NCBI RefSeq assembly: GCF_012641335.1
Contig: NZ_JABAID010000012.1
Coordinates: 1 to 64,000, forward strand
DNA from: Novosphingobium sp. ERN07
GTDB taxonomy: Bacteria > Pseudomonadota > Alphaproteobacteria > Sphingomonadales > Sphingomonadaceae
Reading direction: 5' to 3'
DNA length: 64,000 nucleotides
A program made the position numbers and the translations under genes. Below, in pieces: positions 34,843 to 51,724 of the stretch. The notes beneath the pieces were generated by a model. The model was not told the origin of the DNA. It made no database searches and saw nothing but the letters and a program-made list of their open reading frames with translations. Numbering within the stretch: position 1 is the first letter of the stretch; each line of letters starts with the position of its first letter.

Positions 34843-35720
34843 TGATTGATGCCGTGCTTCTTATTGTAGCCCTGCAGCCATTCGAGGGTCTTGGTCAGAC
34901 CGCCGAAGGGGTAGAAGTGCAGGCGGACCTTGCCATGTTCGGCGCCAAGGCCGCGCGCGAAGGCATCGACCAGCTTGTCCGGTCCGGCCGTGCCGAGCAG
35001 GTTCGTGACCGAGATACCGTATTTCTTGAGCACCGAGGTGGAGGCACCGACGCCGCAGCGGGCAGCAAAGGCCAGCAGGCGCTTGATCCCGGCGGGCCCC
35101 GGCACGCCGATGCGGACCGGGGCATCGATGCCGCGCGCGCGCAACTCCTTGAGCCAGTTCAGGAAAGCATCGGGATCGAAGCCGAACTGGGTGACGATCA
35201 GCGGGGCCATGCCGCGCGCGGTGATATCGGCCACCTTCTTTTCCAGCACCGCCCAGCATTCAGCTTCGGTCATGTTGGGATGCCCTTCGGGGTGCCCGCC
35301 GATGCCGATGGCCTTGATGCCGCTGCGTTCGAACGCGCCGGTGGCAATCAGCGCAGAGGTATCGAAATAAGGGCCGACCGGTTCGGGCGGATCGCCTGCG
35401 ACGATGAAGCAGCGCTCAACGCCAGCCTGTTCGACCACGGCGCGCAAGTAGCCTTCGAAATCGTCTTCCGATGTGATCCGGCGGGCGGAGAAATGGGGCA
35501 TCGGCTCAAAGCCGAGTTCGCGCACCGCAACTGTGGCCGCAACGCGGGCGGCAACATCCTCACCGGGGAGGAAAGTAATCGCAATTGGGGTTTCAGCCGG
35601 GATGAGCGGGGCAGCATCGCGCAGCGACGCTTCGTCCTTCGCGGTCATCTCAAGCGAGAAACCATCGGTGATCCCGTTGGGCACCTTGTCCCAGTTGGGA
35701 TGGATTTGGGGTGTTGCCAT
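34839..35720 (-). CDS. metF: Methylenetetrahydrofolate reductase
   Basis: MetF reduces 5,10-methylene-THF to 5-methyl-THF. Next to a THF-dependent O-demethylase it can run in the other direction, oxidising the methyl-THF made by LigM, as in the SYK-6 ligM-metF arrangement. The protein has about 293 residues with a TIM-barrel pattern. The active-site Glu is likely in GFSLEMTA near residue 20, followed by FIVAGDPPEP and IGIGGHPEGHP. The ATG has AGGA 8 nt upstream; the longer frame is not supported. It lies 79 bp after ligM. Confidence 0.88.
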   Translation of the reverse strand: MATPQIHPNWDKVPNGITDGFSLEMTAKDEASLRDAAPLIPAETPIAITFLPGEDVAARVAATVAVRELGFEPMPHFSARRITSEDDFEGYLRAVVEQAGVERCFIVAGDPPEPVGPYFDTSALIATGAFERSGIKAIGIGGHPEGHPNMTEAECWAVLEKKVADITARGMAPLIVTQFGFDPDAFLNWLKELRARGIDAPVRIGVPGPAGIKRLLAFAARCGVGASTSVLKKYGISVTNLLGTAGPDKLVDAFARGLGAEHGKVRLHFYPFGGLTKTLEWLQGYNKKHGINQ

Positions 35721-35799
35721 GATCGGGATCCTCATTGAGTCTTGGGCGATCCGCCCGGCCACCTTTGCGGTGATCCGGGCGGAGCCTGTTTGATTGGCC

Positions 35800-37305
<1,506 letters not shown>

Positions 37306-37337
37306 TTATGAGCGCGGCACAAACGGGAGAGATTTTG

Positions 37338-38192
37338 ATGAGCGCATCGCTGATTCTGACGCTATCTTGCGAGGACAAGCCGGGGATCGTCTCGCGCGTG
37401 ACGGGCAATCTATTCGAAGCTGGCGGCAACATCCGTGAAGCCCAGCAGTTTGATGACCCCCTGAGCGGGAAGTTCTTCATGCGCGTGGTCTTCGATCCGG
37501 GCGCGGGATCAGTTGACCAGTTCCGTGCAGCATTTGCGCCTGTTGCGCAGCAATTTTCGATGGAATGGAACCTGCGCGACACATCGGTGAACCGCAAGGT
37601 GGTGCTGATGGTCAGCAAGTTCGACCACTGCCTTGGCGATCTGCTTTATCGCACCCGCATTGGCGAACTGCCGATGGATGTGGTGGCAATTCTGGGCAAC
37701 CACCCCAAGGAAGCGCTGAACATTTCGCTGATCGGTGACATTCCCTATTACCACCTGCCCATCACCAAGGACACCAAGCCGCAACAGGAAGCCGAAGTGA
37801 AGCGCATCGTTACCGAAACGGGCGCGGAACTGGTGGTGCTGGCGCGCTATATGCAGATCCTTTCCGACGATCTGGCTGCGTTCCTTTCGGGTCGCTGCAT
37901 CAATATTCATCATTCCTTCCTGCCCAGCTTCAAGGGTGCCAAGCCCTATCATCAGGCGCACGCACGCGGGGTGAAGATGATCGGTGCGACCGGCCACTAT
38001 GTGACCGCCGACCTCGATGAAGGCCCGATCATCCATCAGGACGTGGAAACGGTGACCCATGCCGACAGCCCGGAAGATCTGGTACGCAAGGGCCGCGATG
38101 TGGAACGCCGCGTGCTGGCCGAAGCAGTGCGACTCCATCTGGAAGACCGCGCGCTGGTGAACGGCAACAAGACTGTTGTGTTCAAAAGCTGA
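37338..38192 (+). CDS. purU: Formyltetrahydrofolate deformylase
   Basis: PurU hydrolyses 10-formyl-THF to formate and THF, restoring the free THF needed by LigM. The 284-residue protein has an N-terminal ACT domain (about 5-85, [21 protein letters not shown]) and a C-terminal formyl-transferase fold with the Asn-His pair in [11 protein letters not shown] and the Asp in [18 protein letters not shown] lies 7 nt before the ATG. It diverges from ligM, which supports a shared C1 role. A hairpin terminator follows. Confidence 0.93.
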
Positions 38193-38268: not shown

Positions 38269-38670
38269 ATGCACGTCAACGCGCTGGACCACGTCAATAT
38301 CATCACCGACCGTCTCGACGAGACGGCAGAGTTCTATCGCGCCCTGCTGGGGCTGGAGCGGCGCGATGGGCCGCCGCCGCTCACGCCGCAGAACGCGCAG
38401 TGGATGTATGATGCGGGCGGCAAGGCCATCGTTCACATCAACGCCGTGGATTGCCCGCGCGCCTATGACCGCGACGTGCAGCCGGGATCGTTGACCGGGG
38501 CGATCCATCACGTGGCATTGAACTGTTCAGGCTATGATGAAACGCTGCGCCGCATCAGCGCGTTGGGGCTGGATTGCCAGACCAACACAGTAGAGGCCAT
38601 CGGTCTGCGGCAGATATTTACCGCAGACCCCAACAACGTGCTGCTGGAACTGAACTTCTTCGGCGACTAG
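38269..38670 (+). CDS. VOC superfamily (glyoxalase/dioxygenase-fold) protein
   Basis: This 133-residue protein has the paired beta-alpha-beta-beta-beta modules of the vicinal oxygen chelate fold. Candidate metal ligands are His in LDHVNIIT, His in IHHVALN and Glu in VLLELNFF. The size fits a single-subunit glyoxalase-like enzyme or a fosfomycin-resistance-like protein rather than an extradiol dioxygenase. The ATG follows GGGAGAG. Its stop overlaps the stop of the convergent hydrolase gene. The substrate is unknown; the location suggests an aromatic or glutathione adduct. Confidence 0.82.
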   Translation: MHVNALDHVNIITDRLDETAEFYRALLGLERRDGPPPLTPQNAQWMYDAGGKAIVHINAVDCPRAYDRDVQPGSLTGAIHHVALNCSGYDETLRRISALGLDCQTNTVEAIGLRQIFTADPNNVLLELNFFGD

Positions 38671-39404
38671 GCCGGAATCGCACCTTCCAGCGCATCGGCC
38701 AGTTCCATCGGGAAGGACAGATAGGGGCTGTGATCTGCGGGCAGCGTCACTACGTTTGCACCGGGTGAAAAGTGCAGCATTCGGCGCTGGCTGTCGATCG
38801 GGATGGTGCGGTCTTCGGTGCACTCCACATAGGTGCGCGGAAGGCTGCCCCAGCGGTGGGGCGTGACATGGACCTTCTGTGCGCGTGGCGCGTGGGGTTC
38901 GGCCATCAGGCGCGCCATTGCTGCCGCGACCAGATGAGGCGGTGAAAGCTGGGCGAACACCGGCGCAGCATTTGCCGCATCGATCTCTGTCGCCACGCCT
39001 TCATGAACCTTGCGGATGATGCCATCGAAGGCCGGGTTGGCACCTTCAAGCTGCTTGAATTCGGCGCGGCTCATGCCATCGGGCAGCATCATCGCGCAGA
39101 TATAGACCAGTGCATCCACCGCAGCCGGATCGCGCTCTGCCGCCGTGGAGACGACAAGCCCTCCGCGTGAGTGCCCGGCGAGAACCACCGGCCCAACGCC
39201 TTGCGCTTTCAAATCGCGGCAATGCTGCGCAGCAAATTCGCCCCAGCCATCCAGCGTTACAGCGGCCATTTCCGCTGCCGTGCCGCCCATGCCGGGAAGT
39301 GTGGGCGCGACAACCGTGTGGCCCCGCGCACGCAGAATGTCCGCCACCAGATCGAAGCACCAGCCGCCGTGCCACGAACCGTGAATGAGAACGAAACCGG
39401 CCAT
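38667..39404 (-). CDS. Alpha/beta-hydrolase (salicylate-esterase/EstC-like)
   Basis: This 245-residue protein has HGSWHGGWCF (oxyanion region) near residue 8, the nucleophile Ser in AGHSRGG and a C-terminal His in LPADHSPYLS. It belongs to the plant-esterase-like group that includes EstC-type enzymes. Its ATG touches the upstream GST stop. It is the last gene of the long catabolic series and could hydrolyse a lactone, ester or thioester. Confidence 0.85.
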   Translation of the reverse strand: MAGFVLIHGSWHGGWCFDLVADILRARGHTVVAPTLPGMGGTAAEMAAVTLDGWGEFAAQHCRDLKAQGVGPVVLAGHSRGGLVVSTAAERDPAAVDALVYICAMMLPDGMSRAEFKQLEGANPAFDGIIRKVHEGVATEIDAANAAPVFAQLSPPHLVAAAMARLMAEPHAPRAQKVHVTPHRWGSLPRTYVECTEDRTIPIDSQRRMLHFSPGANVVTLPADHSPYLSFPMELADALEGAIPA

Positions 39405-40180
39405 CAGCGGACTTCTCCCGACCAGACCCGGAGACCCGGTGCGGTGCGGTCTTCACCCTTCAGCGCTTCGGCAATGGCTGGGCGGGCGGTCATGCGGTCG
39501 CGCCATTCGCACAGGCGCGGGGCACGTGCGGCGATTTCCATTTCGGGGAACATGCGTTCAACCATGATGCCGCAGTGGGAATAAAAATTGATGTCGGCAA
39601 GGGTATAGGTATCGCCCGCCAGCCAGCGGGTTTGGCCAAGTTGTGCTTCCACTTTGGCGACAGCATATTCGATTTTCGCCGTGGCATTGGCAAGGTCTGC
39701 TTCGGAAAAGCCGGAGCGGGCGGTGGCCCATTTCTTGCGCTGATCGGGCAAGGGAATGCTTTCCAGCAGCTTTTCGAAATCGCCACTTTCGATGTTGCGT
39801 GCGATGACGCCGACCATGCGGTGCCAGCCGTGCATTGAAACGAAGTTCATCACGTGTTCGTCAACGAACTTGTTCCAGTAGCGCATCCGGCTTGCGCCCA
39901 CCGGATCGCGCGGGCGCAGCGGGGCGTCGGCGGGCTGGGCATCGGGGAAGGCGTCTTCCAGATATTCGTTGATGACGGTGGTGTGGGTGATGATCGCACC
40001 ATCATGGTCCAGCACAGGCACCTGACCTTCGGGATTGATGGCGGTGAACCACGGCTGATGCTGTTCGAACTTGTGCAGATCGACATAGATGCTCTCGTAA
40101 GCCAGCCCCTTTTCCTTCAGGGGAATCATAGACTTCAACGAGTTCGCCAGCGGTTCGGCGTGGTAGTATTTCAGGCTCAT
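39404..40180 (-). CDS. LigF-like glutathione S-transferase (beta-etherase family)
   Basis: This 258-residue GST matches LigF-type beta-etherases, as I recall them, in the thioredoxin-like domain: ANSLKSMIPLKEKGL near the start, KFEQHQPWFTAINPEGQVPVL, then the VINEYLEDAFPDA glutathione-site motif. LigF cleaves beta-aryl ethers of lignin dimers using glutathione. The C-terminal helical domain is of similar size. The chosen ATG (MSLKYYH) is 8 codons inside the longest frame. It lies 4 bp after the SDR gene. Whether it is a true beta-etherase or a related glutathione lyase needs activity data. Confidence 0.82.
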   Translation of the reverse strand: MSLKYYHAEPLANSLKSMIPLKEKGLAYESIYVDLHKFEQHQPWFTAINPEGQVPVLDHDGAIITHTTVINEYLEDAFPDAQPADAPLRPRDPVGASRMRYWNKFVDEHVMNFVSMHGWHRMVGVIARNIESGDFEKLLESIPLPDQRKKWATARSGFSEADLANATAKIEYAVAKVEAQLGQTRWLAGDTYTLADINFYSHCGIMVERMFPEMEIAARAPRLCEWRDRMTARPAIAEALKGEDRTAPGLRVWSGEVR

Positions 40181-40184
40181 CGGT

Positions 40185-40934
40185 TCAGACTCGCATTGTG
40201 CCAAGCATGCCGCCGTCCACGGCCCAGCTTTGGCCGGTCACGTGGCTGGCGGCATCGGAAAGAAGGAAGGCGGCGACTTGCGCCAGTTCTTCAGGCTGCC
40301 CGGTGCGGCCCTGCGGGACCGCCTTGGCCATTTGTTGCGCGGCTTGCGGAGGAAGGCCATCGAGCATCGGGGTTTCGATCAGGCCGGGCACGATGCAATT
40401 GCAGCGCACGCCGTGTTCCGCCGCTTCGTTGGCCACTGCGCGCGACAGGCCGAGCACCGCGTGCTTGCTGGCGACATAGCCCGCGTTCATCGGCAAGCCG
40501 CGCTCGCTGGCAAGGCTGCCAGTGACGAGGATCGCACCGGTTGCGCGCTGCTTCATCGCGGGTAATGTGTGCTGGATTGCCCAGAACACGCCTTTCAGGT
40601 TGACCGCCATGACCGCATCGAACGCTTCGTCGGTATAGTCTTCAACGGGCGCGAACATGCCGCCGATCCCGGCGTTGAGGAACAGCCCGTCAATCGGGCC
40701 ATTGGCGGCGACGGCATGATCAAGCGCGGCGTGCAGCGCGGACTTGTTGGCCACATCGGCAGCGGCGAAGGCGGTGTTGCCGCCGAGATCGTGTGCGGCC
40801 TGTTCCAACAGATCGGCGCGGCGGGCAATCAGGGTGACGTTTGCGCCCGCCGCGACGCAGCATTTTGCCGTGGCGCGGCCTATGCCGGTTGAAGCTCCTG
40901 TAATGACAATGTGCTTGCCGGTAAGATCGGTCAC
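40185..40934 (-). CDS. Short-chain dehydrogenase/reductase
   Basis: This is a classical SDR of 249 residues with the cofactor motif TGASTGIG at 12-19, LNAGIGG, the catalytic Ser in LVTGSLAS and the YVASK pair. The GTG start overlaps the preceding stop (GTGA), which fixes it. In this context it could oxidise a benzylic or side-chain alcohol before ether cleavage, as LigD/LigL do in SYK-6. It is shorter than those enzymes and its sequence is generic, so that role is inference. Confidence 0.85.
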   Translation of the reverse strand: MTDLTGKHIVITGASTGIGRATAKCCVAAGANVTLIARRADLLEQAAHDLGGNTAFAAADVANKSALHAALDHAVAANGPIDGLFLNAGIGGMFAPVEDYTDEAFDAVMAVNLKGVFWAIQHTLPAMKQRATGAILVTGSLASERGLPMNAGYVASKHAVLGLSRAVANEAAEHGVRCNCIVPGLIETPMLDGLPPQAAQQMAKAVPQGRTGQPEELAQVAAFLLSDAASHVTGQSWAVDGGMLGTMRV

Positions 40935-41392
40935 GTATCGCTCCGTGCGATGAAGGCGGCCCATACCCGCGCCTCGTTGCTGTCATGCCCTTCGGGCGAC
41001 CACTGGCGCTCCATGATGGCGCGGGCTTCGGCTTCGGGCATCTGGCGATGGTCGCGGTTGAGGCGGTAGAAGAAGGCCGAAACGCGCCAGTTCATGATGC
41101 AATGGACGTGAACGGGCTGTGGGCCGTCCTTCACCGCATCGACGAATGCGGCGAAGTGATCCTCGCCCGGCGCATCGAACGGCACGGGGATGTGGGTATA
41201 GGCGATGCCGTGTGCGGCCAGTTTCTCTCCCTCGCCTGCCAGCGCTTCGGGATGGGTTTCCAGTGCCAGATTGATGACGTGGCGCACGCCAAGATCGGCA
41301 AGGCGCGCCACGTCCTTATCCTCGATCCGGCCAGACGTGGTGGTTTCGGCGTCGAGCCTTTGCCACGCCCGGATATCGACCGGATCGGCCAT
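40931..41392 (-). CDS. Tyrosine-phosphatase-like protein (DUF442/Blh type)
   Basis: This is a 153-residue protein with the dual-specificity phosphatase-like fold. The N-terminal TSGRIEDKDVARLADLGVRHVINL segment is typical, and the putative loop is HVHCIMNWRVSAF, a Cys-X4-Arg arrangement like that of DUF442 proteins rather than the usual Cys-X5-Arg. Catalytic activity is therefore uncertain. It sits between the amidohydrolase (3-bp gap) and the SDR (4-bp overlap), clearly in the catabolic operon, but has no obvious place in the pathway. Confidence 0.75.
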   Translation of the reverse strand: MADPVDIRAWQRLDAETTTSGRIEDKDVARLADLGVRHVINLALETHPEALAGEGEKLAAHGIAYTHIPVPFDAPGEDHFAAFVDAVKDGPQPVHVHCIMNWRVSAFFYRLNRDHRQMPEAEARAIMERQWSPEGHDSNEARVWAAFIARSDT

Positions 41393-41395
41393 CGT

Positions 41396-42268
41396 TCAGG
41401 CTAACCCAAGCAGGCGCGCGGCGTTGTCCTTCATGATGCCGGGCATGACTTCTTCCTTGAAGCCGACCTGCAGCGCCGCATCGATCCACTTTTGCGGGTG
41501 GATCAGCGGGAAGTCGGAGCCGAACAGCATCTTCTTCTTCAGTTGCGTGTTGGCGTACTGGATGATCTGCGGCGCGAAGTATTTAGGCGACCAGCCGGAC
41601 AGATCAATGAACACGTTGTTCTTGTGCAGCGCCATCGACAGGCTTTCATCCACCCACGGCCATGACGGGTGGGCAAGGATGATCTTCATGTCGGGGAAAT
41701 CGACCGCAACGTCATCCACCAGCATGGGCTGGCCGTATTTCAGGCGCATCCCGCCGCCGCCGGGCATACCTGTGCCCATGCCGGAATGGCCGGTGTGGAA
41801 GATGGCAGGTAGACCGTATTCGGCAATGACTTCATAGATCGGATAGCCGACGCGATCTGCCGGGTGGCAGTTCTGGGCGATGCCGTGAAACTTAAAGCCC
41901 TTCACGCCATAGTTCTCGATCAGGTCACGCGCTTCTCGCGCGCCGAACTTGCCCTTGTGCGGGTCGATAGAGGCAAAGGCGATGCAGATGTCGTCGTTCT
42001 TGAGCGCCATTTCAGCGACTTCGTAGTTCGACACGCGCTTGGCCCCCATGCCGCATTCGGCATCGACTGTGAACATGCAGAAAGCGATCTGCTGTTCGCG
42101 GTAAATCTCGACGATTTCGGGCATTTTTGGCCGTTCGCGCGGGGCCTTGAAATAGGTGCTGGCCGCATCGAAGAACTGGCCCATGACCGGATCTTCGGGA
42201 TCGTGGCACGAAATCTCGGCATGGACGTGAACGTCGATGGCCTTGATCTTCGAAAGGTCGATGGGCAC
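41396..42268 (-). CDS. Amidohydrolase-2 family metal-dependent hydrolase or decarboxylase
   Basis: This 290-residue TIM-barrel amidohydrolase has His14 and His16 (DVHVHAE), a HTGH motif at 158-161, an ILAHPSWPWVDE strand and the Asp in GSDFPLIHP. The family includes 5-carboxyvanillate and gamma-resorcylate decarboxylases and the CouO-type hydrolase that splits aryl-beta-ketoacyl-CoA into aromatic acid and acetyl-CoA. The acyl-CoA synthetase upstream makes the CouO-like role the more attractive option, but the fold alone does not decide. The gene lies 79 bp after the aldehyde dehydrogenase. Confidence 0.8.
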   Translation of the reverse strand: MPIDLSKIKAIDVHVHAEISCHDPEDPVMGQFFDAASTYFKAPRERPKMPEIVEIYREQQIAFCMFTVDAECGMGAKRVSNYEVAEMALKNDDICIAFASIDPHKGKFGAREARDLIENYGVKGFKFHGIAQNCHPADRVGYPIYEVIAEYGLPAIFHTGHSGMGTGMPGGGGMRLKYGQPMLVDDVAVDFPDMKIILAHPSWPWVDESLSMALHKNNVFIDLSGWSPKYFAPQIIQYANTQLKKKMLFGSDFPLIHPQKWIDAALQVGFKEEVMPGIMKDNAARLLGLA

Positions 42269-42347
42269 GGAATTGTTCCTTTGTTTGGCAGCGTCAAGCC
42301 AGCCCTGCCGCGATACGGCAGAGCTGGCTTCAGCATTCAGGCGCGGA

Positions 42348-43772
42348 TCAGACCAGCGCGTCCTTCTTGACGGTGATCACCTGCGTGTAGGTGAACTCCT
42401 TCAGGCCTTCGATGCCGTATTCAGCGCCAAAGCCGGACTGCTTGTGACCGCCGAAGGGCGCGAAGGGCGAGAGGTGGAGGAATTCGTTGATCCACACCGT
42501 GCCAGTTTCAAGCTGTTCGGCAATCTTCACGCCGCGTTCCGCGTCCTTGGTCCACACTGCGCCCGCAAGGCCGTAGTCGGAATTGTTGGCGCGTTGGATG
42601 ACTTCCTCTTCGGTCGAGAACTTCATCAGCGGCATGACCGGTCCGAACTGCTCTTCGGCCACGATGCGTGCGTCTTCGGGCGGGTTGTCGAGGATGGTGA
42701 TCGGCACATAATAGCCCGAACCCGAAGGATCGACATCGCCACCGACGAGGAACTTGTAGCCGTTGTCCTTGGCGTCCTGAATCAGTTCGCACACGCGCTC
42801 GAACTGCTTCTTGTTCTGGATGGGGCCAACGCCGGTGCCCTGATTGGCGCCGTCACCAACCGTCACGCCCTTGGCATATTCGGCAATCGCGGCGCTCATC
42901 TCGTCATAGATGTCTTCGTGGATATAGACCCGCTTGGCCGCGACGCAGATCTGGCCGGCGTTGGTGAAGCTGGACCAGAAAAGCTGTTCGGCAACCTTTG
43001 CCACATCGGCATCGGGCAGAACGATGGAAGCGTCGTTACCGCCAAGTTCAAGCGTGATGCGCTTCAGGTCTTTCGAAGCGCCTTCCATGATGCGCTTGCC
43101 GGTGGCGGTCGATCCGGTGAAGGTGATTTTGTCGATATCGGGGTGCGAGGTCATCAACGGCCCCAGCGAATCTTCGCCGGTGATGATGTTGACGACGCCT
43201 GCGGGCACGATGTCCTTGATCAGTTCGGCAAACTTCAGCGTGGTCAGCGGCGTGAACGGCGACGGCTTGAGCACGATGGTGCAGCCCGACAGGATGGCGG
43301 GCGCGATCTTCTGCACGGCCATCAGCACCGGGAAGTTCCACGGCACGATCCCCGCGACAACGCCCACCGGCACGCGGCGCGTGCGGCTGAGGCGCGTATC
43401 GCTATCCTCGTTGATCGTCTCTTCAAGGCTGAGGGTGGACTGCGCGCTCATGATCGCGGCGCTGGCACCGATTTCGTGCTGCGCCTGATGATGCGGCTTG
43501 CCCTGTTCGCTGGTGAGCAGGCGATAGAGTTCGTCGAAGTTCGCTTCGACGGCGGCGGCCATGTTGCGGATGACGGCGCGGCGATCATCCACCGGCGTCT
43601 TCGACCAGGTTTTGAACGCGGTCCGCGCGGCGGCAACCGCACGGTCCAGTTCGGCAGCGCCACAGGCAGGCACGCTGCCGATAACCTGTTCGTTCGCCGG
43701 GTTCACGACATCAAGCGAGGTTGCCGTGGTGACAAGTTCACCATTGATCAGATTGGGATAAAGCTGCGTCAT
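42348..43772 (-). CDS. NAD(P)-dependent aldehyde dehydrogenase
   Basis: This 474-residue ALDH is complete, with Asn146 (PWNFP), Lys169, Glu242 (ELGG) and the catalytic Cys276 (NAGQICVAAKR). It likely oxidises an aromatic aldehyde made by the PQQ alcohol dehydrogenase next door, for example vanilloyl acetaldehyde, coniferaldehyde or vanillin. GGAGAG lies before the ATG, and a perfect palindrome lies 22 bp upstream. Confidence 0.9.
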   Translation of the reverse strand: MTQLYPNLINGELVTTATSLDVVNPANEQVIGSVPACGAAELDRAVAAARTAFKTWSKTPVDDRRAVIRNMAAAVEANFDELYRLLTSEQGKPHHQAQHEIGASAAIMSAQSTLSLEETINEDSDTRLSRTRRVPVGVVAGIVPWNFPVLMAVQKIAPAILSGCTIVLKPSPFTPLTTLKFAELIKDIVPAGVVNIITGEDSLGPLMTSHPDIDKITFTGSTATGKRIMEGASKDLKRITLELGGNDASIVLPDADVAKVAEQLFWSSFTNAGQICVAAKRVYIHEDIYDEMSAAIAEYAKGVTVGDGANQGTGVGPIQNKKQFERVCELIQDAKDNGYKFLVGGDVDPSGSGYYVPITILDNPPEDARIVAEEQFGPVMPLMKFSTEEEVIQRANNSDYGLAGAVWTKDAERGVKIAEQLETGTVWINEFLHLSPFAPFGGHKQSGFGAEYGIEGLKEFTYTQVITVKKDALV

Positions 43773-43793
43773 GATTCTCTCCGAGGGTTATAG

Positions 43794-43812
43794 TTGCTAT
43801 GATTCATAGCAA
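43794..43812. promoter_or_regulatory. Perfect inverted repeat upstream of aldehyde dehydrogenase
   Basis: TTGCTATG-ATT-CATAGCAA is a perfect 8-bp inverted repeat with a 3-nt spacer in the 45-bp gap between the PQQ dehydrogenase stop and the ALDH start. It has the same 19-bp length as the ligM-purU palindrome and related arms. It could be an internal operator or the stem of a processing site. Confidence 0.55.
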
Positions 43813-43817
43813 TCTTG

Positions 43818-45923
43818 TTAGTGCCCTTCCAGTGCCTTGTCCTCGTTGGCACGTTTTATCACGTAATGCCGGATCGATTCGATCTGCTCCTTGGTCATAT
43901 ATTTGCCCCAGCCGATCATGCCGTTGTCGACCAGCGCACCGTCATGCACGACAGTTTGCCACGCACCGGCATCGGCATTCACGCCGCTGTGGCGCAGATC
44001 GGGCAGCAGACCGCCGATGGCTGCATCGCCGTGGCAGACCGTGCAATATTTGCCATAAAGGTAGCTGCCCTGCGCAATCGTGGCAGGAGTGCCAACAGGC
44101 GCAGGCGGATCAAGCGGACGTTCTTCGAACGGCGGCGCATCGGGCAGCTTACCCTTTCCGCCCAGCTTGAACACCAGCAGGCGGCTAATGTTGCGCACCG
44201 GGCCAGACTTGTCGGCCAGCACGCCGGTTGCCAAAGGCCACACGCCACCCCAGCCTGCCAGAACGGCAACGTACTGATCGTTGCCGACCTTGAACGTAAC
44301 AGGCGCGGCGACGACGCCGGTCTGCGCCGGGAACGACCACAGTTCCTTGCCATCCTTGGCGGAATAGGCTGCGAAAGTGCCTTTGGCATTGCCCTGAAAC
44401 AGCAGACCGCCCGCTGTTGCCAGCAGGCCACCGTTCCACGGCCCGGCGAACGGAATGCGCCAGCGTTCCTTCTTTTCTACCGGATCCCACGCGACCACAG
44501 CGCCCGTCGTGGCGGCCTTTGCCGCTTCGCGCGCTTCCTTGATCGCAGGCATCGCACCGGCAGAACTGTCCAGCCCCACGTTGAAGCCAACGGCCTGCGG
44601 CTTCCAGTCTTTTTCAGGGAAATAGGGATAGGCCGCGAATTGCGCCGGGATATAGACCAGACGATTGTTCGGATCAAAGGCCATCGGGTGCCACGAATGC
44701 GCGCCAGCCGCACCGGGTGTGCTGATGAATGGCTTGCCCGTCTTGTCATAGCGCGCTTCGGGATTTTCAATCGGACGGCCATTGGCATCCAGACCCTTGG
44801 CCCAGTTCACCGGGGCATAGGCGTTGCCCGAAATGAACTGCCCGTTGGTGCGGTCCAACACATAGAAGAAGCCGTTCTTGGGCGCCTGCATCAGCACCTT
44901 GCGCGGTTTTCCGTCAATCTGAAGGTCCGCCAGAATGATGTGCTGAGTTGCGGTGAAATCCCACGTTTCGCCGGGGGTTTCCTGAAAATGCCAGGCGTAT
45001 TCGCCGGTCTTGGCCTTGATCGCCACGATGGACGACAGGTAGAGGTTATCGCCACCACCGGGCGAGCGATAAGCCTGATTCCACGGGCTGCCGTTGCCGA
45101 CGCCGATATAGAGCAGATCAAGCTCAGGGTCATAGGCCATCGCATCCCAAACGGTGCCGCCACCGCCCAGCTTCCACCATTCGCCTTTCCAGGTGGCTTC
45201 GGCCTTCTTGAGATATTCCTCGTCGTTCTTCCCCGGCATGTCGGGCACGGTGTAGAACCGCCAGACCTGCTTGCCGGTTTGCGCATCATAGGCCGTAACG
45301 TAGCCACGCACGCCCATTTCCGCGCCGCCATTGCCGATGACGATCAATCCGCCAATCGCACGCGGTGCGCCGGTGATCGTATAGGGCTTGGACTGATCGA
45401 CGGTGACGGTGGACCACACCTGCTTGCCGGTGTTCCGATCCAGTGCAATCAGCCGACCATCAAGCGTGCCGAAATAGAGCTTGTCACCCCATGCGGCCAT
45501 GCCCCGGTTCACCACGTCACAGCAGGCCTTTACCGCGGTTTCGCCCGGCACCTTGGGATCGAATTCCCACAGCAGCTTGCCCGTCAGCGCGTCATAGGCC
45601 TTGGCCTTGGACCACGCGGTGGTGATGTAGATCTTGCCATCGATTACCAGCGGCGTGGCTTCCTGTCCGCGCGCGGTGTCCATATCGGCAGACCATGCAA
45701 GGCCCAACTGGCCGATGTTTTCCGGCGTGATCTGGGTGAGCGGGCTGAAACGCTGTTCGTCATACGTGCGACCATAGGACAGCCAGTTCGCCCCATCGCC
45801 CGCGATGATCTGCTGTGCATTGACGCCGGGATCGGCATTGGCAGCCATCGTGCACGCGGCCAGTGGCAACGCCAGCGCCAGTGTTCCTGCGAGCACGAAT
45901 TGCAACTTGCGGTTCAATCGCAT
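43818..45923 (-). CDS. PQQ-dependent quinohemoprotein alcohol dehydrogenase
   Basis: This 701-residue exported enzyme oxidises primary alcohols with PQQ and passes electrons to its own heme. The ATG inside a GTG-started frame gives a lipoprotein-like signal (LALPLAAC). The eight-bladed propeller has tryptophan-docking repeats (GKLLWEFDPKV, GKQVWRFYTVP, GKELWSFPAQTG) and the adjacent Cys pair in KACCDVVNRG that contacts PQQ. The C-terminal cytochrome c domain has CTVCH at about 627-631. It is located between the acyl-CoA synthetase and the ALDH. PQQ synthesis genes are not in this window. Confidence 0.92.
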   Translation of the reverse strand: MRLNRKLQFVLAGTLALALPLAACTMAANADPGVNAQQIIAGDGANWLSYGRTYDEQRFSPLTQITPENIGQLGLAWSADMDTARGQEATPLVIDGKIYITTAWSKAKAYDALTGKLLWEFDPKVPGETAVKACCDVVNRGMAAWGDKLYFGTLDGRLIALDRNTGKQVWSTVTVDQSKPYTITGAPRAIGGLIVIGNGGAEMGVRGYVTAYDAQTGKQVWRFYTVPDMPGKNDEEYLKKAEATWKGEWWKLGGGGTVWDAMAYDPELDLLYIGVGNGSPWNQAYRSPGGGDNLYLSSIVAIKAKTGEYAWHFQETPGETWDFTATQHIILADLQIDGKPRKVLMQAPKNGFFYVLDRTNGQFISGNAYAPVNWAKGLDANGRPIENPEARYDKTGKPFISTPGAAGAHSWHPMAFDPNNRLVYIPAQFAAYPYFPEKDWKPQAVGFNVGLDSSAGAMPAIKEAREAAKAATTGAVVAWDPVEKKERWRIPFAGPWNGGLLATAGGLLFQGNAKGTFAAYSAKDGKELWSFPAQTGVVAAPVTFKVGNDQYVAVLAGWGGVWPLATGVLADKSGPVRNISRLLVFKLGGKGKLPDAPPFEERPLDPPAPVGTPATIAQGSYLYGKYCTVCHGDAAIGGLLPDLRHSGVNADAGAWQTVVHDGALVDNGMIGWGKYMTKEQIESIRHYVIKRANEDKALEGH

Positions 45924-45958
45924 CTCAAACCCTCTCACCCAGTCCGGTTATCGCCGGA

Positions 45959-47524
45959 TCAATTCACCATGCGGTCGCTGTTGCCCCAGTACGGAGCGCG
46001 CAGCGCCTTCTTGTCCATCTTGCCCGCTGCGGTGCGCGGAATCGAGTCCACAAACTTGACAGATTTCGGCGCTTTGACTCCGCCGAGCCGATCCTTGGTA
46101 TAGGCGATGATCTCAGCCTCGGTGATCCCGTCTGCAACCACCACGGCGTGAACCTGTTCGCCCCACTTTTCATGTGGAATGCCGAATACACAAGCTTCGC
46201 GCACGGCTGCGATCTCGGTCACGGCAGCCTCAACCTCGGCAGTGAAGACGTTGAACCCGCCGGACACGACCATGTCCTTTTTGCGGTCTACAATATAGAG
46301 GTAGCCGTCTTTGTCGAACTTGCCGACATCGCCGGTGTGGTGCCAGCCGAACTTGCGGATTTCGGCGGTTTCCTCAGGCTTTTCAAAGTAGGAATGCGTC
46401 ACCAGCGCACCGCGCACGCAGATCTCACCCGCCTCACCCAGCGGCACTTCGTTGCCATCGTCATCCAGCAGGGCAACCTTGATCGAGCGCGAAGGCTTGC
46501 CGCAGGCGGCCAGCTTTTCGGGCGCTTCCATCGCGAACTTTGCCACATCCTCGGGCGGGAACCATGCAACGATCATCGGGCATTCGACCTGCCCATAGGA
46601 CTGGCACATCGCCGGGCCGAACACTTCGACCGCCTGCCGCAGTTTTTCCGGGCTGCACGGCGAACCGACGAGGATGAAGATGCGCAAGCTGGAGTAGTCA
46701 TGGCTGCCCAGTTCGGGCGAGGCCAGCAACTGGTACAGCGCCGTCGGCGGCAGGTACATGTGCGTGACCTTGTGCTCCGCAATGGTGCGCAGCACGCGCT
46801 CTGCATCGAAGCCGGGCAGGATCACCTGCGTTGCGCCAAGGCTCAGCGTCGAAAGCGCAATCGGCCCCGCCGCATGGGTGATCGGCGCAGAGACAAGCGC
46901 CACCGGATTATCGGTGCGACCGCCCATGCCATCGGCAGCGGTTTCGATCATCGTGCCCCAGCCAAGGTTGGTCACGTTCGCGCCCTTTGAAGGGCCAGTC
47001 GTGCCTCCGGTGGGGAAGATGCCGACCATGTCCATCAGGTTGCCGAAGGCGTCGATTTCCGGCTCGACGAAGTCTGCTTCGGAAACGCCGTCCATGAACT
47101 CTTCAAGGCTGGGGTCATCGCCCATACGCTGATCGAGGCAGACGAAGTGCTGGAGCGTGGGGCACAGGGCCTTGAGCTGCTCCACCTCGTCAGCCTTGGA
47201 CGAATGATAGACCATCCATTTGAGGCGGACGTAGTTGATATAGGCGGCGTTCGCATCAATCGCGTTGCGCGTGTTGACCGGAATCCACTTCCCGTTCGCA
47301 CGCCACATGGCGAGCAGCGCGACCAGCAGCATCCCGTCGTTCGGACCATAAAGACCAAGCAGATCCTGATTTTCGAACCCGCCTTTTTGCAGCGCCGCAG
47401 CGATGCGCACCGAAAGCGCCTTCGTTTCGGCAAACGTCATTGAAAGACCGGTATCGGTATCAACAATCGCAAGGCGCTGCGGGTTGCGATCATGGCCACG
47501 GTCAAAATAGTCGATAGCGCGCAT
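45959..47524 (-). CDS. Acyl-CoA synthetase (AMP-dependent, aryl/acyl-CoA ligase)
   Basis: This 521-residue ANL-family ligase has the P-loop TGGTTGPSKG at 172-181, an SYGQVECP A5-type motif, the adenylate motif HHTGDVGKFDKDGYLYIVDRKKD near 400 and a C-terminal Lys in RTAAGKMDKK. It activates a carboxylic acid as CoA thioester. Its place between beta-etherase-like GSTs and alcohol/aldehyde dehydrogenases suggests a phenylpropanoid-type acid (for example vanilloyl acetate or a cinnamate) as substrate. It starts 3 bp after the GST stop. Confidence 0.9.
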   Translation of the reverse strand: MRAIDYFDRGHDRNPQRLAIVDTDTGLSMTFAETKALSVRIAAALQKGGFENQDLLGLYGPNDGMLLVALLAMWRANGKWIPVNTRNAIDANAAYINYVRLKWMVYHSSKADEVEQLKALCPTLQHFVCLDQRMGDDPSLEEFMDGVSEADFVEPEIDAFGNLMDMVGIFPTGGTTGPSKGANVTNLGWGTMIETAADGMGGRTDNPVALVSAPITHAAGPIALSTLSLGATQVILPGFDAERVLRTIAEHKVTHMYLPPTALYQLLASPELGSHDYSSLRIFILVGSPCSPEKLRQAVEVFGPAMCQSYGQVECPMIVAWFPPEDVAKFAMEAPEKLAACGKPSRSIKVALLDDDGNEVPLGEAGEICVRGALVTHSYFEKPEETAEIRKFGWHHTGDVGKFDKDGYLYIVDRKKDMVVSGGFNVFTAEVEAAVTEIAAVREACVFGIPHEKWGEQVHAVVVADGITEAEIIAYTKDRLGGVKAPKSVKFVDSIPRTAAGKMDKKALRAPYWGNSDRMVN

Positions 47525-47527
47525 TGG

Positions 47528-48313
47528 TTATCCCCAACGGTTGATTTCTGGCCCCGGCGCCCATGCGCGGAGCGGGTCTGGAACAGTGGCGCGGGCAAAA
47601 GCCGCCTGAATGCAGGGCAGCGCAGTGGTGCGTGCCAGCCATGCCTGTGTGCGCGGTGCTGCGGTGAACGCTTGCGGCAAAAGCGGCTCCATCGCGGCAA
47701 GCCACGAGTACGTCACCAGATCGGCAATGGAGAAAGACCCCATCAGCCAATCGCGCCCATCGACCAGTTGCTTTTCACAGCGTTCGACCGCAGCGGCGAC
47801 CTTGGCTTCGCTATCCGCGATCTGCGCGGCATCAATGCGGCCATCGTGCAGCGCCTGCCAGCGTTCGCGCAAATCGTCCGATGCGATACTCGCGGTGATA
47901 TCCGCAAAACCCTCTGCCGGGATGGCCGCAAGGGCCGCCTGCGCACTGGCGACATTGCCCAGCAGCGCCGCGGCGGGCGAAAGCCGCTCGGTGATCTGGC
48001 GGCACCACATCATCATTTCCCAGCGGGCAAAAGCATCAGTCGGCTGCAAGCCCGCGCCCCCGGCTGCTTCATCCAGATACTGCGCGAGGAAGACAGATTC
48101 GGTCATCGCCTCTCCATCTGCCACCAGCACCGGCCCTTCACCCTCAATCCCAAGATCGAGCGCGATTGAGTCCGAAATACCGGGCAGTGCATGACGCTCT
48201 CCCGCCAGCAGATCGATGTGGCGACATTCGATAGCAAGGCCCGATTCCGCCAGCGCCGCCAGGACGGTCAGCGAAGCGCCATTCGGCTCGCCGTGATAGA
48301 GAATGGCGCTCAT
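47528..48313 (-). CDS. Glutathione S-transferase, second member of a beta-etherase-like pair
   Basis: This is a 261-residue GST. The thioredoxin-like domain runs from LYHGEPNGASLTVLAALAESGL to a MTESVFLAQYLDEA glutathione motif, and the all-helical second domain ends in a Pro/Trp-containing tail. Its start overlaps the preceding GST by 4 bp (ATGA), so the two subunits should be made together. N. aromaticivorans has a heterodimeric beta-etherase (BaeA/BaeB) of two adjacent GSTs, and this pair fits that plan. It diverges more from LigF than its partner does. Confidence 0.82.
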   Translation of the reverse strand: MSAILYHGEPNGASLTVLAALAESGLAIECRHIDLLAGERHALPGISDSIALDLGIEGEGPVLVADGEAMTESVFLAQYLDEAAGGAGLQPTDAFARWEMMMWCRQITERLSPAAALLGNVASAQAALAAIPAEGFADITASIASDDLRERWQALHDGRIDAAQIADSEAKVAAAVERCEKQLVDGRDWLMGSFSIADLVTYSWLAAMEPLLPQAFTAAPRTQAWLARTTALPCIQAAFARATVPDPLRAWAPGPEINRWG

Positions 48314-49080
48314 CCTTCGATCTCCGCCATGATCAGGCCATAGCGATGGGCGAGGTCCGTTTTCCCCATCGCCCACGTCTTCTTGACAGCATCGCGGCTG
48401 TAGACACGCTTCAGCCAGCGCATGATGTTCGGCGTCTTGTCCTTGCCCGCCAGATCGGGCTGCGACAGTGGCAGCGAATAGGTGCTGTTGAAGATGTTGA
48501 TATCGGCCAGCGTATATTGGTCAGAGCCGACATAGGGCCGCTTGCCCAGTTCCTCTTCCAGCTTGGCGATGCCCAGCCCCACACGGCGGCGGCTTTCGGC
48601 CATTTCGCTGTCCGAGAAATTGCCGCTGATCGCCTTGCGCCATGCCACGCGGCGTTCAGGCAGTGGAATGCGTTCGATCGCGGCATCGAGTTCTGCCGGG
48701 TCACGTTGGCGCACCATCGGCCCTACGAACACGCTCCACCCGATCATGGAAAAGCTGGGGCCGAGCCACTGGTCCATGAACTTCATCCACCAGCGCACCC
48801 GCCAGCGGTCCTGCGCATCACCGGGCATCAGATCAGGCCCGGCGAACTGGTCGTTCACATATTCCATGATCGCGGTGCTTTCGGTCAGCACGCGCGAACC
48901 GTGGGTCATCGCCGGGATCGTGCCCTGCGAGTTGATCGCGAGGTATTCCGGCTTGTGCTGATCGAACTGCAGCATGTCGATGTAATGGCTGGCAAAGGGC
49001 ACGCCCTTTTCCATCAGCGCCAGCATCGGCTTGCCCGAATTCGCATTCGGCTCCCAGTGATAGAGGGTAACCTCGTCCAT
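48310..49080 (-). CDS. Glutathione S-transferase, first member of a beta-etherase-like pair
   Basis: This is a 256-residue GST related to LigF/BaeA-type beta-etherases: LYHWEPNANSGKPMLALMEKG, then QFDQHKPEYLAINSQGTIPAM and the VLTESTAIMEYVNDQF glutathione site. The helical domain has GWSVFVGPMVRQRDP and YTLADINIFN. The ATG is 18 codons inside the longest frame and follows a purine-rich stretch. It is the first gene of the long catabolic series and a palindrome lies 45 bp upstream. It overlaps the next GST by 4 bp. Confidence 0.82.
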   Translation of the reverse strand: MDEVTLYHWEPNANSGKPMLALMEKGVPFASHYIDMLQFDQHKPEYLAINSQGTIPAMTHGSRVLTESTAIMEYVNDQFAGPDLMPGDAQDRWRVRWWMKFMDQWLGPSFSMIGWSVFVGPMVRQRDPAELDAAIERIPLPERRVAWRKAISGNFSDSEMAESRRRVGLGIAKLEEELGKRPYVGSDQYTLADINIFNSTYSLPLSQPDLAGKDKTPNIMRWLKRVYSRDAVKKTWAMGKTDLAHRYGLIMAEIEG

Positions 49081-49124
49081 CCGCCGCCTTGCCTCTCTCC
49101 CGATTCCGCTTGTCACGGAATTTG

Positions 49125-49141
49125 TTAGTAACACATACTAA
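49125..49141. promoter_or_regulatory. Perfect inverted repeat upstream of the GST-pair operon
   Basis: TTAGTA-ACACA-TACTAA is a perfect 6-bp inverted repeat with a 5-nt spacer, 45-61 bp upstream of the first GST start. It shares ACACATAC with the ligM-purU palindrome. Its location suits an operator. The remaining 49,142-49,325 sequence shows no gene or other clear element. Confidence 0.55.
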
Positions 49142-49325: not shown

Positions 49326-49694
49326 TCAGCGCGCAGTCATGGTCCAGCGGAAGAGATGGTTGCGGCCAGAGAGCGGCGCGGCCACAAGCATTTCTTCCGT
49401 GAGTCGCAAGCCCTGCTCCTCAAGAAGCCCTCTTAGCGCAGTCCAGTCACTCCAGCGAGTGAGGCCCGTCACCCTTTGCGGGGAACCGAGCGCACGCCGT
49501 GCGTTTTCCAGCCCATCGGCCAGATCGATTTGCTGCGCCCCGTGCTGCGTGGCGGCAAAAGCGAGCGATTCCGGTACACGGCTGTCAAACGCCACCAGCG
49601 GCGCATCGCCAAGGCTGGCGGCAAAGGCGGGCGCGGCAACAGCCGTTCCAGCCAACGCGCTGCCTTTCAACATCGAACGGCGGGAAAGGCGCAT
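49326..49694 (-). CDS. Small Tat-type exported protein
   Basis: This 122-residue protein has a Tat-like twin-arginine signal (SRRSMLKGSALAGTAVAAPAFA) and about 95 mature residues without cysteine or membrane segment. The mature part contains LEEQGLRLTEEML and NHLFRWTM. I do not recognise the family. The ATG overlaps the cytochrome gene stop by 1 bp. It is third in the flavoprotein-cytochrome operon, which suggests a periplasmic accessory or maturation factor. Confidence 0.7.
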   Translation of the reverse strand: MRLSRRSMLKGSALAGTAVAAPAFAASLGDAPLVAFDSRVPESLAFAATQHGAQQIDLADGLENARRALGSPQRVTGLTRWSDWTALRGLLEEQGLRLTEEMLVAAPLSGRNHLFRWTMTAR

Positions 49695-50098
49695 CAACCT
49701 GCCTTCCCCAAATAGGCCGCCACGGCATCAAGCTCGGCGTCGGTCAGATCAACCTTGGTCTGCTGCGGCATCGCGCCCTTGCCCATGCGCACCACTGCTT
49801 TCACGTAATCGCGGGTCAGATCGTCACGGTTGGCAAGCAGGCCCTTTTCCGGCGGATTGCCCGCCATCATCTGCTGCTTGGTCAGCAGGTTGGTGCCCAT
49901 GCCACCAACCAAATGACAATAGCCGCACTGCGCCTCGAACACGGTCTTGCCATCGCGGCCCAGCTTCAATCGGTCACCCTCTGGCGCAACCGGGCGCATC
50001 ATGTAGGGCGGCATAGGTGGGGGGCCTCCGGCAGGCGGCGCGGCATAGGCGGCAGCGCCCACGGCAACGAGAGCGGCGGCAATCACGATACGCTTCAT
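49694..50098 (-). CDS. Exported c-type cytochrome
   Basis: This is a 134-residue monoheme cytochrome. A signal peptide (MKRIVIAAALVAVGAAAYA) precedes a heme site CGYCH near residue 55 and a likely axial Met in GKGAMPQQTKVDLTDAELDAVAAYL. The chosen ATG lies 1 bp past the flavoprotein stop. It is the obvious electron acceptor for the adjacent VAO/PCMH-type flavoprotein, as PchC is for PchF in 4-cresol dehydrogenase or EhyA for EhyB in eugenol hydroxylase. Confidence 0.88.
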   Translation of the reverse strand: MKRIVIAAALVAVGAAAYAAPPAGGPPPMPPYMMRPVAPEGDRLKLGRDGKTVFEAQCGYCHLVGGMGTNLLTKQQMMAGNPPEKGLLANRDDLTRDYVKAVVRMGKGAMPQQTKVDLTDAELDAVAAYLGKAG

Positions 50099-50099
50099 A

Positions 50100-51686
50100 T
50101 CAGTTGCCCCCCTTGTAGGCAGAGCCGCGCTTGTCGGCATAGGCCGCAGGCCACACGCCCTGCTTGCCCGGCGCGATGATCCCGTTGGGATCGAGCGCGG
50201 ACTTCACCTTTTCGTCGAAGCGGCGCAGCGCGTGGTTGTTGAAATCGAAGGTTTCCATCACCGGGTCCATCCAGCCCAGATGGGTGCGATATTCCGCATA
50301 ACCCGCCTTGGCCGTCTCGACGATCAGCGCATCGAACAGCTTGCGCATCTTCACGACTTCCTCAGCGTTGTCGCGGTCATACATCAGCATATTGACGTTG
50401 TTGGCAAAGCGCCCGCCGATGGTGAAGCTGGCATAGAAATCGACGTCGAAATCCGCGATGATCTTGCGGCTGCGCGCCATCTGATCCAGCACGTGCTTGC
50501 CCGTGGCGGGCACCACCGGCGAAAAGCCCATGTGCGCCCCGCGCCCGCCGATCCAGTCGGACATCTGCAATGGCACGGCAGACGGCACGCCCATCGTCGT
50601 TTCATACTGCCCGATGGGATCGCCCTGCCGCCACCAGTGCTCTGCAGGTGCGGCATCGAGATGGCGCTTCATCGCCGCCTTCACCACTTCGGCCCGCGCC
50701 TTGACCACCGGTTCCTCACCATAAAGACGTAGTGCGACCTGCCAGTAGCCGAGCTTGTGCTCTTCCAGCAGTTCTTCGACGCGCCATTCGGGAATGGCCG
50801 ATGGCTTGTCCCAGAAGTCCTTGCGCTGGCCTTTCAGCACCATCTTGCCCAGCCACGACGGGATGAACACGTTCTGATCGATCAGGCCGGATATCTTGAG
50901 CGGCGTGATCGTGTCGATCACCCAGCCGATATCCTCAACCTTCGGGATATCCCACACGATTTCCAGCGAGGTTTCCGGCGCAGGCTGCAGCCACACGCCT
51001 GCCTTGGTCACCACGCCAAGGTTCGATTGCGAGAACGCCAAATCCCACGTCGGGCCATAGCTCATCGGGAAGAGGTGCCACGCCGGGTTGTTGTTCATCG
51101 CGCCCATGCCGGTGCGCACCAGATCGCCATCGGGCAGCACCGCCTCGATCCCGCAAAGGTTGCGCGCGTGAAGGCCATAGGGCGTGTAGCCGATGCCGTG
51201 TTCCAGCGCATTGCCCAGCACCGAACCCCAGGCGTTGCCGGGGACCGAAAGCCACAGCGGGGCCTTTTCGCGCTGAATCTGGTCGTAAAGATCAAAGAAG
51301 CCCACGCCCGGTTCGACCACGCAGTACGCCAGCTTGTGATCGAGTTCGAGCACCTTGTTCATCCGGCCGAGGTCCATGACCACGGTGCCTTCCATGCGCG
51401 GCGCGGCAGTGCCATAACCCAGGTTCTTGCCACGCGCGACGGGCCAGAGCGGCACCTTATGCTCGTTCGCCAGCCGCACAATAGCGCGCACTTCGTCCAC
51501 GCTGGCGGGCGCGACGGCGGCAGACGCAGGCCACTCCTCGGTGCTGCCGGGGGCGTATGTATCTGCATAGGCATCGCGATCAGCGTCGGTGTCCATGGCC
51601 CATTCCTTGCCCACGACACCGGCAAATGCGGTCATCGCAGACTGGAACTGCTTGGGGCTGACGCGAGGGGGCAGGTGAAGCTTCAC
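50100..51686 (-). CDS. VAO/PCMH-type FAD-dependent oxidoreductase (phenol side-chain oxidation)
   Basis: This 528-residue flavoprotein is related to vanillyl-alcohol oxidase, eugenol hydroxylase and 4-cresol dehydrogenase. The FAD domain has ARGKNLGYGTAAPR and GSVLGNALEHGIGYTPYG. The C-terminal domain has EYRTHLGWMD, with the Tyr-Arg pair that stabilises the phenolate, and DPNGIIAPGKQGVWP. Compared from memory, the His that binds FAD covalently in VAO is Asn (ANNVN, 50,397-50,402), and the Tyr used by PCMH is Phe. The flavin may therefore be non-covalent. The GTG start with GGAGA 9 nt upstream is preferred. No signal peptide is visible although its cytochrome partner is exported. Confidence 0.86.
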   Translation of the reverse strand: MKLHLPPRVSPKQFQSAMTAFAGVVGKEWAMDTDADRDAYADTYAPGSTEEWPASAAVAPASVDEVRAIVRLANEHKVPLWPVARGKNLGYGTAAPRMEGTVVMDLGRMNKVLELDHKLAYCVVEPGVGFFDLYDQIQREKAPLWLSVPGNAWGSVLGNALEHGIGYTPYGLHARNLCGIEAVLPDGDLVRTGMGAMNNNPAWHLFPMSYGPTWDLAFSQSNLGVVTKAGVWLQPAPETSLEIVWDIPKVEDIGWVIDTITPLKISGLIDQNVFIPSWLGKMVLKGQRKDFWDKPSAIPEWRVEELLEEHKLGYWQVALRLYGEEPVVKARAEVVKAAMKRHLDAAPAEHWWRQGDPIGQYETTMGVPSAVPLQMSDWIGGRGAHMGFSPVVPATGKHVLDQMARSRKIIADFDVDFYASFTIGGRFANNVNMLMYDRDNAEEVVKMRKLFDALIVETAKAGYAEYRTHLGWMDPVMETFDFNNHALRRFDEKVKSALDPNGIIAPGKQGVWPAAYADKRGSAYKGGN

Positions 51687-51712
51687 CGGACGGATTCTCC
51701 CATGTGTTTTTC

Positions 51713-51724
51713 TAACAATTGTTA
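51713..51724. promoter_or_regulatory. Palindrome TAACAATTGTTA upstream of the flavoprotein
   Basis: A perfect 12-bp palindrome lies about 27 bp upstream of the flavoprotein start, in an AT-rich spot that also contains TTATTGTTATG. It may be an operator or part of the promoter. Confidence 0.4.

Follow-up and report, generated by a model that had tools for sequence, protein, structure and literature searches.

A row of ten minus-strand genes (38667–49134) was identified in a stretch of 64,000 nucleotides from Novosphingobium sp. ERN07 (contig NZ_JABAID010000012.1; hereafter the window), and we lean, with some reservation, towards reading it as a lignin side-chain operon that is headed by a BaeAB etherase and has a coenzyme A (CoA)-dependent 'retro-Claisen' ending. 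The ten genes are packed like a single operon: all run in the same direction with intergenic gaps of -67 to +79 bp, which fits such an arrangement, and the gene order is not due to chance since it was seen again in named relatives. The reading is supported by the gene families and their order, the subfamily of the amidohydrolase, the residues of the etherase pair and the co-occurrence of the genes, while we infer every substrate and the order of the steps. A BaeAB-type etherase, of a kind known to cut the commonest lignin bond, a CoA ligase and a hydrolase are thus present in one gene row, the latter two as candidate genes for a step recently listed as missing in the literature.

The amidohydrolase and its subfamily

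The best new evidence concerns the amidohydrolase, which on its sequence is assigned to the CouO/HpeF-type beta-ketoacyl-CoA hydrolase subfamily. The protein belongs to PF04909 and has conserved metal and pocket residues in common with the members encoded in hca and hpe operons; K126, H128, H158, H200 and D252, the last at a predicted metal-ligand position, were invariant in all 45 compared subfamily members. In the tree, these 45 formed one group at 100/100, separate from three other PF04909 proteins. Identity to the members outside the sphingomonads was 49–62%, and these are encoded in operons of the fcs–ech–short-chain dehydrogenase (SDR) type and in hpe-like operons. A 52% identical Rhizobium plasmid protein is annotated as '4-hydroxyphenyl-beta-ketoacyl-CoA hydrolase', its neighbours being feruloyl-CoA synthase, hydroxyacyl-CoA dehydrogenase, enoyl-CoA hydratase and MarR. 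The 60 and 55% identical copies are located in clusters of Pseudomonas putida and Rhizobium leguminosarum, respectively, together with biotin carboxylase parts, HAD hydrolase and acetoacetate-CoA ligase, which matches the gene content of the Hpe route for acetovanillone. Both Hpe-like clusters are plasmid-borne (L210 in P. putida YC-AE1 and L214 in R. leguminosarum BT01). Two Rhodococcus plasmid homologues were 49–50% identical to the amidohydrolase, CouO of RHA1 (WP_011597356.1) and Atu1421 themselves being outside the alignment.

The keto acid of the Hpe ligase/hydrolase step is vanilloyl acetate, which a couO mutant reportedly accumulates. Vanilloylacetyl-CoA is the substrate in the ferulate and acetovanillone operons to which subfamily members belong, and by analogy the same reaction would be expected here. 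The AMP-forming synthetase HpeE and HpeF have been proposed to activate hydroxyphenyl-beta-ketopropionate and to release acetyl-CoA, and HpeF is 95% identical to CouO (PMC9618137). CouO, also a member of the amidohydrolase superfamily, performs the last step with an aromatic acid as the product (PMC4737184). The initial annotation of the window had the side-chain acid first activated and then split to a vanillate-type acid; the CouO/HpeF type of the amidohydrolase lends support to this sequence of events, as cleavage of this sort following a CoA ligase has been assigned to that type, while the substrates are still what we infer.

That the amidohydrolase would be a LigW-kind non-oxidative aromatic acid decarboxylase, the row then handling carboxylated dimers or 5-carboxy acids, is very improbable. 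The fold search of the amidohydrolase model (mean pLDDT 87.3) was not decisive: after the uncharacterised 3irs, most of the best matches were decarboxylases including LigW structures, but these had only 11–18% identity and a query TM of about 0.6–0.7. Against them stands the much higher sequence identity to the beta-ketoacyl-CoA hydrolase group given above, and LigW was absent from the PDB sequence search at 1e-5.

The etherase pair and the proposed route

The two glutathione S-transferases (GSTs) at the upstream end of the row, GST A and GST B, match the heterodimeric beta-etherase BaeA/BaeB, and BaeAB-type cleavage is the candidate function of the pair; the beta-etherase-like GSTs of the initial annotation are hence present as a BaeAB-type etherase. 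The best solved structure for both was LigF (for GST B at E 1.5e-13), and the baeA-type gene is located directly upstream of the overlapping baeB-type gene. The layout was compared in 80 loci retained from 143 relatives, 65 of which had at least 8 kb of sequence downstream of BaeA. BaeB immediately followed BaeA in 64 of these 65 loci, overlapping or abutting it within 4 nt in 60 of the 64, and in the 65th (L041) it was located by tblastn, having been missed by the gene caller. The Asn-Ser motif was invariant in 95/95 BaeA-like sequences, whereas the catalytic-Asn position was occupied by Pro or Ala in 88/88 BaeB-like sequences with the Ser retained; both sets include the window and count some genomes twice. 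Asn14 of BaeA is needed, and no such residue is predicted in BaeB (PMC6369299). GST A was 69% and GST B 55% identical to the BaeA-like and BaeB-like proteins of a Sphingobium xenophagum locus (L104).

Also GST C, near the downstream end of the row, is LigF-like, and its Asn-Ser motif was invariant in 62/62 sequences. Together with the alpha/beta hydrolase it lies near ligM at the positions of Saro_2865 and Saro_2864 in Novosphingobium aromaticivorans, corresponding to DesD and DesC by family and order. DesD (= NaLigF2) and DesC have been assigned to syringate ring fission in the literature. Judged by these positions, the pair is probably concerned with ring fission in the syringyl branch rather than with the side chain. 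Reading the whole row as a single linear pathway, as in the initial annotation, was rejected on account of the desD/desC positions and of the break-up of the module in relatives.

In the proposed route, the BaeAB etherase would cut the beta-aryl ether and release a hydroxypropanone, which would be converted to the aldehyde by HpvY or a similar alcohol oxidase, or by the dehydrogenase of the row that uses pyrroloquinoline quinone (PQQ) if PQQ is available. The aldehyde would be oxidised to an aroyl acetate (vanilloyl acetate), for which the aldehyde dehydrogenase (ALDH) of the window is a candidate. The AMP-forming acyl-CoA synthetase (ACS) would convert vanilloyl acetate to vanilloylacetyl-CoA, the CouO/HpeF-type amidohydrolase would split this into vanillate and acetyl-CoA, and LigM would demethylate the vanillate. 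The downstream GST–hydrolase pair would serve the syringyl branch after ring opening.

In N. aromaticivorans, further oxidation of the HpvY product probably gives vanilloyl acetate, and VceA/VceB homologues were not found (PMC11837543, 2025). A baeAB operon that also encodes a CoA ligase and a hydrolase of the CouO/HpeF type would close this gap, and two concrete candidates, the Saro_2871 and Saro_2868 types, can be named in a genetically tractable lignin-conversion organism. In the literature search, with most subscription journals outside its coverage, no paper tied Saro_2866–2868 or Saro_2871 to the vanilloyl acetate step. A known end-game would then be paired with a known etherase at a point where a published open question would be answered, and the side chain would be released as acetyl-CoA by a route which could be transferred to other hosts. 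Of the newness claimed for the route in the initial annotation, the tie to a beta-ether operon remains; a ligase and hydrolase pair acting on this keto acid has already been proposed for acetovanillone (Hpe). A wider generalisation is possible, if on balance doubtful: in sphingomonads outside the SYK-6 type, the beta-ether route would end by an ATP/CoA hydrolytic retro-Claisen pair (Saro_2871/Saro_2868 type) in the baeAB operon, with part of the alcohol oxidation taking place in the periplasm using the PQQ of neighbours, so that the speed of dimer breakdown would be community-dependent.

No beta-keto acid cleavage enzyme (PF05853), the family to which VceA presumably belongs, was found in the genome. 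A VceA-like enzyme replacing ACS was also considered and rejected, as a protein cluster near some BaeA loci (c14, PF05853 on one member) occurs both with and without ACS. Among the 65 loci, 31 had only ACS, eight both, eight only c14 and 18 neither, so there is no exclusion pattern.

Distribution of the genes and the PQQ step

The survey sample consisted of 298 genomes of the family, with thresholds of E 1e-20 for the amidohydrolase (at least 67% identity for close orthologues), E 1e-70 for DesD and E <= 1e-180 for ACS. Amidohydrolase matches were found in 63 genomes, 49 of them with close orthologues, two of which were contig-end fragments. All genomes with BaeA (22/22), DesD (35/35) and ACS (12/12) had the amidohydrolase, BaeA being located within 8 kb of it in 19 of the 22 and on a different contig in the other three. 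ACS was found in 12 of the 298 genomes, and 11 of these 12 carry BaeA. Downstream of BaeA, the 65 loci included the amidohydrolase in 57, the PQQ dehydrogenase (PQQ1) in 50 and ACS in 38, and ACS directly followed BaeB in 37 of 64 loci.

A further set comprised the amidohydrolase regions of 40 other genomes (14 with BaeA by choice, 13 with DesD but without BaeA and 13 with neither), in which open reading frames were chosen by a codon-usage score with a caller that still misses genes, such as BaeB in L041. The amidohydrolase was present in three settings: after BaeAB (14/14, by choice), in PQQ–ALDH–SDR–DesD rows without BaeAB, and with a hydratase cluster. Loci L121, L124, L126, L130 and most of L132–L144 had a PQQ dehydrogenase, ALDH and the amidohydrolase, often also SDR and DesD, without BaeAB or ACS, so this block is independent of the etherase. 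A methionine-synthase-like protein (e.g. L059 4862–5917; PF01717 on one member) adjoins many rows, in 20 of the 40 and nine of the 80 loci, and is perhaps a methyl-tetrahydrofolate sink for O-demethylation.

Several results weigh against the etherase-headed operon with a retro-Claisen ending. In only six of the 12 genomes did ACS lie no more than 8 kb from the amidohydrolase; in the remaining six it was 20–23 kb away (three) or on another contig (three). With the best five (ACS) or eight (GST) candidates scored per genome, 37 of the 49 genomes that carry the amidohydrolase had no ACS among them, and ACS was not present downstream in 27 of the 65 BaeA loci, so that the step must fall to other ligases or routes in these cases. 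Both the co-occurrence counts and the hypergeometric values ignore genome relatedness. In the comparison with the CoA ligases located beside other subfamily members, ACS was only 26–28% identical where matched, and with the complete ligase of L214, an Hpe-like locus, no match was obtained at E 1e-15 and half-length coverage. Of the 13 family loci that lack DesD, five have the amidohydrolase together with a ferB-type gene (p-hydroxycinnamoyl-CoA hydratase/lyase family, as tested on one cluster member), four of the five also having an NDP-forming CoA ligase; the substrate of the amidohydrolase need therefore not derive from beta-ethers.

These ferB-type clusters, like the SDR of the window, also fit an alternative in which ligase, SDR and amidohydrolase shorten hydroxycinnamate-like or 3-hydroxy-arylpropanoate acids by CoA-dependent beta-oxidation, with the etherase as a mere neighbour. 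Outside the family, in other Pseudomonadota, CoA ligase, crotonase and SDR were found together with the amidohydrolase orthologue in 12 of the 20 examined loci, which agrees with it. This alternative is nevertheless considered unlikely, as the row is without an enoyl-CoA hydratase, and the presence of BaeA in nearly all ACS genomes and the frequent position of ACS directly after BaeB speak against a mere neighbourhood.

The PQQ step is the weak link. PQQ1 has the PQQ propeller and C-terminal cytochrome c (PF01011 and PF13442) of a type II quinohaemoprotein, aligned with 1kv9 over query residues 48–701, and its lipobox LAAC predicts that it is probably periplasmic. Glutathione and CoA chemistry, in contrast, is cytosolic. 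A full linear route, in which the PQQ dehydrogenase acts on hydroxypropiovanillone, ALDH forms the acid, and CoA ligation and the amidohydrolase split lead into LigM, is improbable for this reason among others, even though PQQ1 was present, besides the majority of the BaeA loci, in 10 of the 13 DesD loci without BaeA and four of the 13 with neither, and ALDH of either lineage in 10 and five of these, respectively.

In the genome, which is rated 100% complete, seven open frames reach E 2e-20 or better with the PQQ dehydrogenase model, but PqqC was not found; no control genome matched in the same PqqC scan. Across the family, PqqC was above the cut-off in six of the 298 genomes, none of them with BaeA, and below it in two more, one of which (G234) has BaeA. 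PqqC is hence detectable and its absence here informative. For PqqE, the genome had sub-cut-off matches only, which was likewise the case with all 14 controls; as none of them was above the cut-off, this result adds little. The organism may be a PQQ consumer without synthesis of its own, its PQQ dehydrogenases depending on outside PQQ, and with the apparent lack of synthesis some oxidation steps may be silent in laboratory cultures.

N. aromaticivorans oxidises beta-hydroxypropiovanillone with HpvY, a GMC enzyme (PMC11837543). Saro_2870 was assayed with PQQ and is not listed with the DC-A-active enzymes, and Saro_2869 oxidises the lignin aldehyde DC-L in vitro (PMC11323797). In the genome, the GMC family had 13 matches, among which HpvY/HpvZ homologues were not distinguishable. 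The use of the PQQ enzyme for the terminal alcohol oxidation, as suggested in the initial annotation, is thus disfavoured by the predicted periplasmic lipoprotein, the missing PqqC and the HpvY of N. aromaticivorans; PQQ1 could instead oxidise alcohols before uptake, not between etherase and ligase. The slot between the PQQ enzyme and the amidohydrolase was occupied by two ALDH lineages of about 40% identity (window 42348–43772; L079 16072–17634), as if the step and not the gene were conserved.

The lignin island and comparison with known systems

By order and family, the row is part of a known lignin island and collinear with Saro_2860–2877 of N. aromaticivorans DSM 12444. Eighteen genes of the window, beginning with the MetF-like gene and ending with the DUF3237 gene, follow the order of the eighteen tags; the parts described here are given in Table 1. 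The published tags are metF 2860, ligM 2861, desD 2865, pinV 2875, pinW 2876 and pinX 2877 (table in PMC12997858), desC 2864 (PMC8091115), ALDH 2869 and the PQQ enzyme 2870 (PMC11323797), and BaeB 2872 and BaeA 2873 (PMC6369299). Eleven of the tags have been named or tested in the literature, and each of them lands on a window gene of the matching family. The literature search found no published pathway role for the six genes in the middle of the island except the activity of Saro_2869 on DC-L and the DC-A assay of Saro_2870.

Table 1. Genes of the row and its surroundings in the window, with the basis of each assignment; family calls are Pfam/NCBIfam profile matches.
Feature	Position	Strand	Basis
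MetF-like methylenetetrahydrofolate reductase	34839..35843	-	PF02219 1.5e-08, above cut-off
LigM vanillate/3-O-methylgallate O-demethylase	35800..37266	-	NF047885 886.6 bits, cut-off 580
PurU-like formyltetrahydrofolate hydrolase	37215..38192	+	PF00551 and PF01842
Alpha/beta hydrolase, DesC (Saro_2864) position	38667..39404	-	PF12697 2.8e-28; collinearity
GST C, DesD/NaLigF2 (Saro_2865) position	39404..40204	-	PDB LigF E 3.4e-55; Asn-Ser motif; collinearity
SDR, possible hydroxyacyl dehydrogenase	40185..40964	-	PF13561 2.1e-60
DSP/PTP-like phosphatase-fold protein	40931..41392	-	PF04273 3.7e-06
Amidohydrolase, putative CouO/HpeF-type beta-ketoacyl-CoA hydrolase subfamily	41396..42268	-	PF04909 5.7e-44; identity, motifs, tree
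ALDH, Saro_2869 position	42348..43772	-	PF00171 8.5e-161
PQQ1, type II quinohaemoprotein alcohol dehydrogenase, predicted lipoprotein	43818..45938	-	TIGR03075 above cut-off; PDB 1kv9 E 2.5e-228; lipobox LAAC
ACS, AMP-forming, proposed vanilloyl-acetate CoA ligase	45959..47524	-	PF00501 4e-61, PF13193
GST B, BaeB-type partner (candidate)	47528..48376	-	67 bp overlap with BaeA gene; catalytic Asn replaced, Ser present
GST A, BaeA-type catalytic subunit of heterodimeric beta-etherase (candidate)	48310..49134	-	PDB best hit LigF E 1.7e-42; Asn-Ser motif
Small protein, twin-arginine-like start, Saro_2874 position	49329..49694 (ends approximate)	-	positional counterpart in another locus, 52% identity, E 7.7e-32
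Cytochrome c, PinV position	49694..50140	-	PF13442 9.4e-16; signal-peptide-like start
VAO/PCMH-family flavoprotein, PinW position	50100..51755	-	PDB VAO/eugenol-oxidase family, best E 8.7e-130
DUF3237 protein, PinX position	51876..52373	-	PF11578 3.9e-38

All gene families named for the row in the initial annotation were recovered with strong profile support, as was its position beside ligM, the MetF-like gene and purU, which lie downstream. A phosphatase-like gene inside the row had gone unmentioned; it has a counterpart in 17 of the 65 BaeA loci, and its product has the Cys-to-Arg spacing HCIMNWR, shorter than the usual phosphatase signature HCx5R. For the SDR, with a possible C-alpha dehydrogenase role in view, the best PDB sequence matches were general SDRs. 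On the upstream side, the row is adjoined by genes corresponding in family to PinV, PinW and PinX: a cytochrome c, a VAO-type flavoprotein overlapping it (50100–50140), and a DUF3237 protein, as PinX is in the literature. This side is prolonged (52518–55618) by a second PQQ dehydrogenase (52518–54722) and a 303-aa protein with no Pfam match at 1e-5, a pair seen again in several Novosphingobium loci.

Of the known systems, the N. aromaticivorans island resembles the window by its 18 genes in the same order and the named tags metF, ligM, desC, desD/NaLigF2, baeB, baeA, pinV, pinW and pinX among them. The Hpe acetovanillone pathway has in common with the row an AMP-forming CoA synthetase and a CouO-type hydrolase, proposed to convert hydroxyphenyl-beta-ketopropionate to vanillate and acetyl-CoA (PMC9618137), but the row is without kinase, biotin carboxylase and HAD phosphatase, and the keto acid would here derive from beta-ether cleavage and alcohol oxidation. 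Hydroxycinnamate deacetylation by the Cou and Atu1415–1421 systems shares the last step to an aromatic acid by a member of the amidohydrolase superfamily (CouO), and the Agrobacterium cluster also holds a vanillate O-demethylase, as the window holds LigM; the row differs from these systems by lacking an enoyl-CoA hydratase and by adding the etherase, the PQQ enzyme and ALDH. The SYK-6 route of HpvZ, ALDH, VceA and VceB likewise starts from hydroxypropiovanillone and ends in vanillate, while an ATP-dependent ligase and a CouO-type hydrolase are proposed here in the place of VceA/VceB.

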